A DNA stretch of 64,000 nucleotides from Frondihabitans peucedani. GTDB taxonomy: Bacteria; Actinomycetota; Actinomycetes; Actinomycetales; Microbacteriaceae. Made by a program: the position numbers and the translations under genes. The notes under the pieces are model-generated. The model searched no databases. It was not told the DNA's origin and saw only the letters and a program-made list of their open reading frames with translations. Where the stretch lies: NCBI RefSeq assembly GCF_039537585.1, contig NZ_BAABAU010000001.1, forward strand, positions 496,001-560,000, given 5' to 3'. Shown here in pieces: positions 10,685-17,066 of this stretch. Each line of letters begins with the position of its first letter. The stretch's first letter is position 1.

Positions 10685-12850
<2,166 letters not shown>

Positions 12851-13095
12851 AGGGCTCCTTCTGACGTGCTGCCGCCGACACACCGGCGGAATACGCGGGG
12901 GCAGACGACCGTTCAAGAATACGGGCGCGCGACCGCCGATCCGCACCCGACACCCCCGCAGAGGGACGCCCTGAACTGGGGCCGTGAAAACACGTACGCG
13001 ATGAGCGAAATCCAGCGAATTGTCGCACGGACGAAACGTCCACGTGTTTTGATGAGTGTCACGAACCCGCGCACCACCTTCTGGAGGAGCATCCA

Positions 13096-13323
13096 ATGAC
13101 TCAGATGGCCACCGACCACAACGCCGTCGACGAGCTCGGCTCCCGTTACCAGCTCTCCGCAGCAGACCGTTGCGACAGCTGCGGGGCCCAGGCCTATATC
13201 CGGGCCACCATGGCCAGCGGCGAACTCCTGTTCTGCGCCCACCACGGCGCCAAGTTCAAAGAGAAGCTGCAGCCGAACGCCATCGAGTGGCTCGACGAGA
13301 CGGCCAAGCTCAGCGCCCACTGA
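13096..13323 (+). CDS. DUF7455 small zinc-binding protein
   Basis: A 75-residue protein with a CDSCGAQA pair followed by FCAHHGAKF, giving Cys-x2-Cys...Cys-x2-His type ligands and matching the actinobacterial DUF7455 family of unknown function. GGAGGAGC lies just before ATG at 13096. A pair of inverted AAAACACGT / ACGTGTTTT arms lies in its upstream region (12987-12995 and 13042-13050). A strong hairpin terminator follows the stop. Confidence 0.9.
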   Translation: MTQMATDHNAVDELGSRYQLSAADRCDSCGAQAYIRATMASGELLFCAHHGAKFKEKLQPNAIEWLDETAKLSAH

Positions 13324-13416: not shown

Positions 13417-14169
13417 TCACATGGCCTTGAAGGCGCGCTCCAGATTGGCGTGGACGACCTCGCGCGACTTCGCCGCGAAGTGGTCGAGCTTCGCGTGCGA
13501 CTCGTTCGTCGAGTAGCTGCCCCCGGTGCGAGCCACCGCCGCACGCAGCAGGCGATCGGTCAGCTCCGGGTTGAGCGGCAGCACCGGGCCCTTCAACTGC
13601 GTGCCGAACGAGGCACCGCGGACGACGCCCTCGCGGCCGTCTCCGTTGCCGCCACCGTGCGTGACCGTGCCGAGCGGAGTCGATCCTGCGCCGAGCTCGA
13701 GGCTCGAGGCGTGGTCTTCGAACCCGTACAGGGTGAGCGCGCCGCCCTGGTAGCCGGTCTCGACCTGGAAGTAGTTGGCACGGCGCTTCGCACCGCGACG
13801 GGCGGTCGCGTCGAAGAAGCCGAGCCCCTCGAGGTCTCCGCCCTCCCCGCCGACGATGCCGCGCGACAGGATCTCCATGCCGCCTCCGATGGCGATGACG
13901 GGCACGCCCTCGTCTGCCCAGTCGGAGAGCGGGGCACCCAGACGCAGGATGTCGTCGTGGAGCGCCCGCAGAGTCGACAGGGGTCCGCTGCCGATGACGA
14001 CGATGTCGGCGGTGGTGGGCACGGCGTCGCCGGGGCGGTGGGCCGAGACCGTCACGTCGAGCCCCGCTCGACGCGCGCGCTCGGCCAGGGTGACGACGTT
14101 GCCGCCGTCTCCGGAGACGCCGAGCTGCTCCGGGTAGAGCTGGACGATGGTCAGGGAGTCGGAGCTCAC
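13417..14169 (-). CDS. gatD: GatD-like class I glutamine amidotransferase homologue lacking catalytic Cys and His
   Basis: Homologue of GatD, the glutaminase partner of MurT that normally releases ammonia for amidating D-Glu of lipid II. The 250-residue protein keeps the family frame (QLYPEQLGVSGDGGNV at 10-24, EGVPVIAI, FGTQLKGPVLPLNPEL). The nucleophile elbow, normally CGGYQ-like, reads GGGME at 95-99, and the catalytic His region, normally GTYLHGP-like, reads GTQLKGP with Lys at 193. There is no cysteine in the whole protein. The glutaminase therefore cannot work by the known mechanism. GTG at 14169 overlaps the murT TGA by 4 bp. Family membership is firm; the loss of activity is inferred from sequence. 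Confidence 0.88.
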   Translation of the reverse strand: MSSDSLTIVQLYPEQLGVSGDGGNVVTLAERARRAGLDVTVSAHRPGDAVPTTADIVVIGSGPLSTLRALHDDILRLGAPLSDWADEGVPVIAIGGGMEILSRGIVGGEGGDLEGLGFFDATARRGAKRRANYFQVETGYQGGALTLYGFEDHASSLELGAGSTPLGTVTHGGGNGDGREGVVRGASFGTQLKGPVLPLNPELTDRLLRAAVARTGGSYSTNESHAKLDHFAAKSREVVHANLERAFKAM

Positions 14170-15425
14170 GCTTGCTTCTCCAGGTCGGGGTAGCCGAGCA
14201 TGTTGCGGGCGATCATCATCTGCTCGTAGTTGACGATGAAGTTCTTCGTCTTGTTCGACGGCGCCGGCAGGGCCTTCATCAGCTCGATCGCCCTCTTGAT
14301 GTCGGGCTCGACGGTGCCGATGGGGATCCCGGCGTGCTCGAGCCGCAGGGCGATCTGCCAGGCCTTCGCTCCCGAGACGACATCGACGTGGTCGAGCGAG
14401 GCGAAGTCGACGTCGTAGATCCAGGAGATGTCGGGGGTGCCCTCGTCGATCGCCAGGAGGACCTGCTCCGGAGCCGACTCGAAGGCGTCGAGGTTGAGCT
14501 GGAGGCTGGCGGCGTTCTTGAACATGACGAACTCGGCCTCGTCGCTGCCGATCCTGAGCCGCTCGCCGCGCCCGTAGGCGGGCTTCATGGCGGCGAAGGC
14601 CGCCACGGCGCGGTCGGACCGGAACTCGGAGCCGAGAGCCACCCGCGCCGCCTGGATCGCGGCTGCAGCGTCGACGGCGTAGTGGAGCCCGCGAGCGGGG
14701 AGCCTGACGTCGAGGTCCTCGCCGCCCACGCGGACGGTGGCGCCGCGCGGGGTGAGGGCGACCACCTCGGCCTCGGCCTCGAGGGCAGCCCGGTCGCCGG
14801 CGGCCGCGAAGTCGTTGGCGTTCTGCAGGCCGTGCGGGGCGGCCGCGACGAGATCGCCGGAGGCGCCGAAGCGGGTGACGTCGAGCGTGGCGCTGGTGAA
14901 CGGGCCGAGGTACTCGTCGTCGCGGTTCGTGACGACGTGGGCCGACGACGTCGCCGCCGTGTCGGTCATCATGTCGGCGACGCGGGACGTCTCGTAGAAG
15001 CGGTACAGCTGGTCGACCTGCACGTTCAGCATGAGGACGGTCGACGGGTGGAGCAGGCCGCTGAGCTCGACGGCGAACGCCTCGTCGACCTCGATGACAC
15101 CGACGTCGGCCTTGAGCCGGCCGAAGACGCTGACCTCGGACAGGAGCGCCGAGGCGATCCCCTGCGGGAGGTTCGCACCCGTCGGGTTGGTGAAGACGCG
15201 AAGACCGTGCGAGCGCATCACGTCGGACAGCATGTGCGTCGTCGTGGACTTGCCGTTGGAGCCCAGGACGAAGAGCACCCCGCGGTCGAACTGCTTCGTC
15301 ACGTCGGTGAGGAAGGACGGGAGCAGCTTGAGCACGAGGTAGCCCGGGTACGCCGACCCGCCCCCTCGGGCCCGGGCGAGAACACGTGCGAGGCGCCCGA
15401 GGAGGATCGGGAAGACGAAGCGCAT
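14166..15425 (-). CDS. murT: MurT-like Mur ligase family protein (no zinc ribbon)
   Basis: Mur-ligase-fold protein of 419 residues. MurT normally activates the alpha-carboxyl of D-Glu in lipid II with ATP for amidation. Visible here are a hydrophobic N-terminus (VLKLLPSFLTDVTKQFDRG), the P-loop GSNGKSTTT at 55-63, the IEVDEAF acidic motif at about 111-117, and the C-terminal DUF1727 segment with DISWIYDVDF. Differences from ordinary MurT: no Cys4 zinc ribbon (the protein has no cysteine), and the usual FRDQLDRY motif reads VQVDQLYRF at about 135-143. ATG 15425 lies 5 bp after the sigA stop. A weak ribosome-binding site suggests translational coupling. It overlaps gatD by 4 bp. Confidence 0.88.
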   Translation of the reverse strand: MRFVFPILLGRLARVLARARGGGSAYPGYLVLKLLPSFLTDVTKQFDRGVLFVLGSNGKSTTTHMLSDVMRSHGLRVFTNPTGANLPQGIASALLSEVSVFGRLKADVGVIEVDEAFAVELSGLLHPSTVLMLNVQVDQLYRFYETSRVADMMTDTAATSSAHVVTNRDDEYLGPFTSATLDVTRFGASGDLVAAAPHGLQNANDFAAAGDRAALEAEAEVVALTPRGATVRVGGEDLDVRLPARGLHYAVDAAAAIQAARVALGSEFRSDRAVAAFAAMKPAYGRGERLRIGSDEAEFVMFKNAASLQLNLDAFESAPEQVLLAIDEGTPDISWIYDVDFASLDHVDVVSGAKAWQIALRLEHAGIPIGTVEPDIKRAIELMKALPAPSNKTKNFIVNYEQMMIARNMLGYPDLEKQA

Positions 15426-15430
15426 ACGGC

Positions 15431-16747
<1,317 letters not shown>

Positions 16748-17066
16748 TGGTGCACCTTTCACTCGGGCTGGGTACGTCGTGAGCATGTCCCCAACACGGC
16801 CACTGATCAGACCCTGATCCGCGTTCTGGGCATAGCTAGGACCCATGTCAAGCCCTCGGCGTTTCACCAGAGGACAGGAACGGGTCCGTAGTCAAGTATT
16901 GCACGGCTCGGGCCGAACCGTTTACAGAACTGAGCGATCCTGGTAAAGGAGGGCGGTGATCCTGGTCGGTGAGGCCGCTGGCCGTGCATGTCTGCACCGT
17001 CTTCAACCGTCCTGGGAGCCGCTGGTATTCCCTCGTCGAGGTCGACCAGGAGGCTGACGGAGAGCG
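16748..17066 (-). promoter_or_regulatory. sigA upstream region
   Basis: About 320 bp without a gene, between sigA and the PAC2 gene on the same strand. It is slightly more AT-rich than its surroundings. On the minus strand TTGACA occurs at 16851-16846 with TAGCTAT 8 nt further on, but spacing to a TANNNT at the usual 17-18 bp is not clear. It most likely holds the sigA promoter(s) and a 5' leader; no element could be fixed exactly. Confidence 0.4.

Follow-up and report, generated by a model that had tools for sequence, protein, structure and literature searches.

What may a MurT/GatD pair still do once its GatD subunit has lost the catalytic residues of a glutaminase? The question is raised by two coupled genes in the 64-kb stretch of DNA analysed here (the window), for which the original prediction had proposed that the pair now ligates an amino acid to the alpha-carboxyl of D-Glu. 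The genes and the borders of their site are listed below.

13417-14169, (-): GatD homologue, 250 aa, GTG start; GatD-like pseudo-glutaminase
14166-15425, (-): MurT homologue, 419 aa; MurT-like ligase without Cys
15431..16867, (-): presumably rpoD/sigA, the primary sigma factor; borders the pair site on its upstream side, a conserved arrangement; true start uncertain
13096..13323, (+): small protein of 75 aa that contains Cys; in many loci it borders the site on the downstream side
10685..13096, (-): presumably parE, for subunit B of DNA topoisomerase IV; borders the site downstream; start uncertain

The GatD and MurT frames share 4 bases of overlap and form a complete, coupled pair on the minus strand, which is the only cargo of the window's own rpoD-parE site. 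Pfam matched GATase_3 in the GatD homologue (9.8e-16) and MurT_C (1.9e-10) and Mur_ligase_M (6.2e-8) in the MurT homologue, and the MurT_C match is the single one in the window's whole genome. The top NCBIfam models were the GatD and MurT isoglutaminyl synthase models, both far below their equivalog cut-offs (92.7 against 450 bits for GatD and 101.3 against 800 bits for MurT). The AF2 model of GatD had a pLDDT of 94.2 and a TM score of 0.86 to S. aureus GatD (6gs2_A). For the MurT model (pLDDT 89.0) the 13 best PDB matches were all MurT chains, and the closest structures were 9sq9 and 9sqj with a TM score of about 0.65.

Loss of the GatD nucleophile and retention of the MurT ligase residues

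The window MurT was searched in 150 family genomes, whose named members are Microbacteriaceae, and 129 of these gave a match; for nine of the 129 the match was weak and came from other Mur ligases or from a fragment. For comparison 124 loci (L002-L125) were taken and arranged in a quick MurT tree with a midpoint root, which served for drawing only. The window fell into one clade of 95 rows from 93 of the 150 genomes; a fragment in G038, 49% identical to the window protein, is outside this count. The remaining loci comprised the canonical clades V (14) and VIII (3), clade VI (9), clade VII (2) and the odd locus L122. From other families the 21 highest-scoring loci at order level were read, and the pair was canonical in all 21. 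Residues were counted in 97 clade rows (the 95 together with L207 and L211) and in 38 canonical rows (clade V, clade VIII and the 21 top-scoring loci of other families), with functional residues defined from PMC6085368 and PMC6113224.

The original prediction had placed GGGME at the nucleophile elbow of GatD and GTQLKGP at its catalytic His, and both placements hold in the alignment to S. aureus GatD: IAIGGGMEIL aligns to LTICGGYQFL with G95 in the position of the nucleophile Cys, and GTQLKGP aligns to GTYLHGP with K193 in the position of the His (Cys94/107 and His189/206 are both missing). The translations contain no Cys in either protein, as had also been stated. Across the homologues, the loss of Cys proved to be a mark of the whole clade, with the nucleophile present in 0 of 97 clade rows compared to 38 of 38 canonical rows. 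The column held G (71), A (17), S (4), N (3) and T (2), and as none of the 97 related rows has Cys in it the loss is well beyond chance. The loss of His did not extend as far: it is kept in 62 of the 97 rows and in none of the 18 rows of the window's subclade, whereas the canonical pairs keep both Cys and His (38/38). A contig scan confirmed 447 loci, and among the best 80 of these, from named carriers, the Cys was absent in all 79 loci with an alignable GatD (the exception was L185, Naasia). The amino acid pocket of GatD is, judged by its residues, partly preserved. The glutamine-capturing Arg is found in 91 of 97 clade rows and the pocket Asp in most of them, and in the window both are retained (R129 and D21).

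The MurT homologue was altered at its gate and intact at its ligase center. Arg135, the gate Arg that lies beside the gate facing GatD, is present in 0 of 97 clade rows and in 38 of 38 canonical rows; in the window it is replaced by V137. The altered FRDQLDRY-type motif and the kept P-loop and DISWIYD segment, all of which had been noticed before, were found again: the RDQLDR-type motif reads VDQLYR, with the first Arg and the second Asp changed and the first D, the Q and the second R retained. In MurT, eight ligase residues (S. pneumoniae K59, N85, E110, D112, E113, N132, R140 and R304) are each conserved in 97 of 97 clade rows, as is D355. The ATP, Mg and acceptor residues among them (K59, N85, E110, D112, E113 and R304) are all present in the window protein, whose intact ligase residues are, in its own numbering, K59, N85, E112, D114, E115, R142, R286 and D332. 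N270 and N273, a couple of Asn presumed to contact the adenine, are mostly substituted in the clade. With these ligase residues kept and the GatD Cys lost, activation of a carboxylate by ATP looks intact and the glutaminase activity appears to be gone, as far as sequence can indicate.

A missing Cys4 zinc ribbon in MurT had also been taken as a sign of redirection, and this part of the argument failed. Canonical MurTs, both those of clade V and those read from other families of the order, have 0-3 Cys, and among the loci read Cys-rich MurTs were found only in clade VIII and in the unusual clade VI. Absence of the ribbon was therefore ruled out as a sign that the pair has been redirected.

Within the window's genus both genes evolve under purifying selection, with GatD freer than MurT and still selected: dN/dS in three pairs was 0.22-0.35 for GatD and 0.17-0.18 for MurT. 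Over six carrier pairs compared, dN/dS ranged from 0.06 to 0.35. In small-genome relatives (L065, L083, L097, L105, L107, L108 and L109) MurT was kept together with a low-scoring GatD at the same position, with scores down to 18 and 23 bits in L108 and L109.

Gene exchange at the rpoD-parE site

The position of the pair is fixed. In 92 of 95 clade loci and 9 of 9 clade VI loci rpoD was present in the locus, compared to 0 of 38 canonical loci, where its absence at the 21 loci of other families is based on 1.5 kb of flank. The pair lies mostly between rpoD and parE, and in many loci with enough flank it is followed by the small Cys protein and parE; in L037, L073 and L110 there are 0.4-0.9 kb between rpoD and the pair. 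The clade loci lacking rpoD were L052, at a contig end, and L086 and L088, which are second copies. These second clade copies (L086 in G122 and L088 in G113) have the altered motifs KSPASMQ and QNPDSLR. An Ala-racemase-like gene accompanied the pair in the same stretch in 21 of 95 clade loci, and an ATP-grasp gene did so in L092 alone. At L104, on a contig of 927,303 bases from a reduced genome, a pair without the nucleophile Cys and a racemase-like gene occupy the rpoD-parE site.

Other cargo was found at the same site in genomes without the pair. A match to rpoD was obtained in 48 of 49 non-carrier genomes searched, and the stretch downstream of it was read in 40. Twelve of these sites were empty, 24 held a F420_ligase-like gene and two held unrelated cargo (L264 and L265); L275 had racemase-like sequence only, and L237 was cut by a contig end. 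The genomes with an empty site had a clade V pair only elsewhere (eight), a clade VIII pair only elsewhere (one) or no pair (three). Cargo families were named from Pfam matches of eight representatives. The F420_ligase-like protein has about 233 aa (for example L240:357-1055 (+), and also L247) and its partner is mostly an ATPgrasp_ST protein. An ATP-grasp gene accompanied it at 22 of the 24 sites, an Ala-racemase-like gene at 14 and a class III aminotransferase at two (G020 and G057), both of which lie at places that exceed the cut-off of TIGR00709, the diaminobutyrate aminotransferase model. The F420_ligase-like and ATPgrasp_ST combination is a candidate second cross-bridge ligase system.

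The two systems exclude each other nearly, short of absolutely. A search for the F420_ligase-like protein covered 149 of the 150 family genomes and gave a hit in one of the 93 carriers compared to 23 of the 56 non-carriers (Fisher p 9e-11, relatedness ignored), and MurT_C was absent in all 35 non-carriers tested for it. The one carrier with both is G147, where the F420_ligase-like match has 39% identity. Both systems also occur together in the clade VII genomes G123 (L116) and G053, where a F420_ligase-like gene adjoins a Cys-less MurT/GatD-like pair.

The exclusion was exact within the large genus g85. Among 79 genomes, 65 had the F420_ligase-like gene and 14 had MurT_C, and the two sets were exactly complementary (chance figure 8e-16, relatedness ignored). 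In all 14 the pair was Cys-less with rpoD adjoining; among the 65 the site was read in G215, G229 and G243, and in addition in G326, a member outside the 79-genome sample. Had the two genes been unrelated, one would expect some genomes to carry both or neither. In-place swaps within a genus were seen in further genera as well: g6, g8, g57, g76 and g84 are each split between a genome carrying the pair and a genome whose site holds the F420_ligase-like set, and g37, g42, g48 and g67 are each split between a genome carrying the pair and a genome carrying clade VI. On the ParE tree the site states were scattered, with 22 changes compared to a shuffled mean of 36.9; the tree is good only for this scatter, because nine rows, probably in part wrong-frame picks, lie beyond branches about 9-10 long.

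Clade VI (L111, L112, L114, L115, L118-L121 and L123) is a second MurT/GatD lineage lacking the catalytic Cys and His, with LFTHN-type and GTSL[IL]GP motifs and a Cys-rich MurT, and an ATP-grasp gene is present in 5 of its 9 loci. That the same loss occurs at the same site, on a branch separate under the midpoint root, suggests that the change happened twice, a reading that another root could alter.

The pair cannot be the ligase throughout the family. In 21 of the 150 genomes no MurT was found and a F420_ligase-like gene was present, 14 had an intact canonical pair only, and in nine neither MurT nor the F420_ligase-like gene was found (G019, G022, G049, G051, G062, G099, G119, G121 and G146). 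Three of these nine (G022, G099 and G146) are drafts of 66-87% completeness, with a weak MurT C-end fragment in G099. The near-complete genomes G019, G051 and G121 (loci L243, L256 and L254) have an empty rpoD-parE site and neither ligase, and the likewise near-complete G049 and G119 have unrelated cargo at the site and neither ligase.

Proposed function and competing explanations

We consider it rather probable that the pair is a MurT/GatD-derived, glutamine-independent ligase that adds an amino acid to the alpha-carboxyl of D-Glu (the likeliest one being the group B D-diamino acid), and that rpoD-parE is the cross-bridge locus of the family. MurT would use ATP to phosphorylate the D-Glu alpha-carboxyl of a peptidoglycan precursor, just as happens in lipid II amidation, and an amino acid would take the place of ammonia by attacking the acyl phosphate with its amine. 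The donor would most likely be the D-diamino acid of the group B cross-bridge, and GatD would be retained as a folded, conserved partner without glutaminase activity. If an amino acid replaces ammonia, it would be natural for the gate Arg and the glutaminase to have been lost. It is in this way that we infer the substrate, the amine, the reaction and the structural role of GatD. The site would then hold one of two options, either the pair, joined in some loci by an Ala-racemase-like gene and at L092 by ATP-grasp, or the F420_ligase-like gene, which mostly comes with ATP-grasp, frequently with a racemase-like gene and in two cases with a diaminobutyrate aminotransferase. The second option would serve a two-step addition of Gly and a diamino acid.

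The redirected ligase of the original prediction is in part supported: a conserved, selected, Cys-less pair of a group B family with intact ligase residues, exchanged at its site with other amide ligases and accompanied by racemase genes, speaks for it, whereas the zinc-ribbon argument had to be given up. Against the proposal stand the 14 genomes with only an intact pair, the nine with neither ligase, the exceptions of G147 and clade VII, and a diaminobutyrate aminotransferase whose spread follows the subclades poorly. The retained GatD Arg and pocket Asp also count against it, because a purely structural subunit need not keep them.

It is unlikely that the pair goes on amidating D-Glu, or else the bridge amino acid at its free carboxyl, with free ammonia as the donor and GatD needed for stability only. 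According to PMC6085368, ammonia can serve the S. aureus MurT/GatD at pH 8.5 with GatD still needed, and the intact MurT ligase residues are consistent with this; however, the explanation does not account for the exact complementarity in g85 with F420_ligase-like sites that carry ATP-grasp and racemase-like genes, nor for carriers that keep an additional canonical pair elsewhere (G054, G066 and G124). We regard it as quite unlikely that the pair ligates an amino acid at another precursor carboxyl or on another wall polymer and not as a bridge residue on D-Glu. The generic nature of the Mur ligase core speaks for it, but N85, D112 and E113, which are implicated in placing the acceptor carboxylate (PMC6085368), are invariant in 97 of 97 rows, and site cargo elsewhere includes racemase-like and diaminobutyrate aminotransferase genes. 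A GatD that works as a glutaminase with a substitute nucleophile would agree with the largely kept Arg and Asp of the glutamine pocket, but it is very improbable given that the nucleophile column is mostly Gly or Ala, that the His is gone throughout the window's subclade, and that S. aureus C94S is described as dead (PMC6113224). Decay to remnants, which the badly degenerate GatD of some small-genome members might suggest, is hardly credible in view of open frames, low dN/dS, invariant residues and the complementarity in g85.

The proposed cross-bridge ligase can be set beside the wall chemistry of its carriers. Schleifer and Kandler are said to have placed the start of the group B bridge at the D-Glu alpha-carboxyl, and in Microbacterium the bridge reportedly begins with Gly. 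The named carriers, from the best 80 of the 447 confirmed loci, include Agromyces, Cryobacterium, Rathayibacter, Leifsonia, Compostimonas, Herbiconiux, Clavibacter, Pseudoclavibacter, Glaciihabitans, Naasia, Ruicaihuangia and Rhodoluna. Microbacteriaceae walls are called group B (PMC10978784), and group B or diaminobutyrate walls are given for Clavibacter (PMC9190974), for Agromyces and Rathayibacter (PMC11294650) and for Cryobacterium, Compostimonas and Glaciihabitans (table in PMC7033078). The wall is B2gamma in Herbiconiux (PMC10011130) and B2beta in Rhodoluna lacicola (PMC4156110), and for Microbacterium D-Orn, L-Lys or diaminobutyrate are listed (PMC10757982). In some genera Gly or D-Ser is bound to the D-Glu alpha-carboxylate, and the passage describing this leaves the enzyme unnamed (PMC11555704). 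If g85 is Microbacterium, as its size may suggest, an attractive reading is that two ligases without a racemase fit Gly-Lys and two with a racemase fit Gly-D-Orn; one ligase would, equally attractively, fit a directly attached diamino acid.

TIGR00709 was rejected as a marker of subclade chemistry. It scored above the cut-off in 20 of 80 genomes and was uneven across the subclades (1/17 in the window's subclade, 1/13 in KN3, 6/20 in KN2 and 8/21 in QN), with 3/6 in F420_ligase-like genomes and 1/3 in canonical-only genomes. It cannot assign wall type, because it is absent in the Herbiconiux-matched genomes G011 and G093, from a genus reported with diaminobutyrate (PMC10011130). The window's own genome has three long Ala_racemase_N matches (C1:2191907-2193729 and C3:391714-392361), two of them close by and on the same strand, and one of the three proteins may be the maker of a D-diamino acid.

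A broader claim strikes us as about as credible as its opposite, namely that the rpoD-parE site works as a swappable cassette for the cross-bridge and so sets the group B chemotype. Two unrelated ligase systems, the glutaminase-dead MurT/GatD, which perhaps arose twice, and the F420_ligase-like gene, mostly with ATP-grasp, would replace each other there, with racemase-like and diaminobutyrate aminotransferase genes as accessories, and the emptied glutamine pocket of GatD may bind the amino acid donor or serve in its control. Wall type is a main taxonomic marker of Microbacteriaceae. If the claim is true, a single genomic site would explain much of the variety of wall chemotypes and wall type would be predictable from sequence; the pair would help to explain how the unusual cross-link of group B is made, and a glutamine amidotransferase would have become an amino acid ligase through loss of its glutaminase. 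The exact complementarity in g85 offers a direct genetic test.

Comparison with known systems

Three groups of known enzymes resemble the pair in part. MurC-MurF and the pseudomurein ligases attach an amino acid through an acyl phosphate made with ATP and are not known to have a GatD partner. Their likeness to the window MurT is remote in both sequence and fold, and the window protein differs in having MurT_C and in being coupled to a GATase_3 protein. Aslfm, the D-Asp ligase, and FemXAB of group A walls also attach cross-bridge amino acids; they are ATP-grasp or tRNA-dependent enzymes and act on the side chain of residue 3, not on the D-Glu alpha-carboxyl. In a literature search at the level of abstracts, no report of a Cys-less GatD or of a ligase starting the group B bridge was found.

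The closest relative is the MurT/GatD isoglutaminyl synthase, with structures from S. aureus, S. pneumoniae and S. pyogenes. Domains, gene order, fold and the ATP, Mg and acceptor residues are common to both. Unlike the synthase, the window pair has neither the nucleophile Cys nor the gate Arg, has lost the His in its subclade, lies at the rpoD-parE site and scores far below the NCBIfam equivalog cut-offs. The swappable locus, once confirmed, would be a larger finding than the pair itself.
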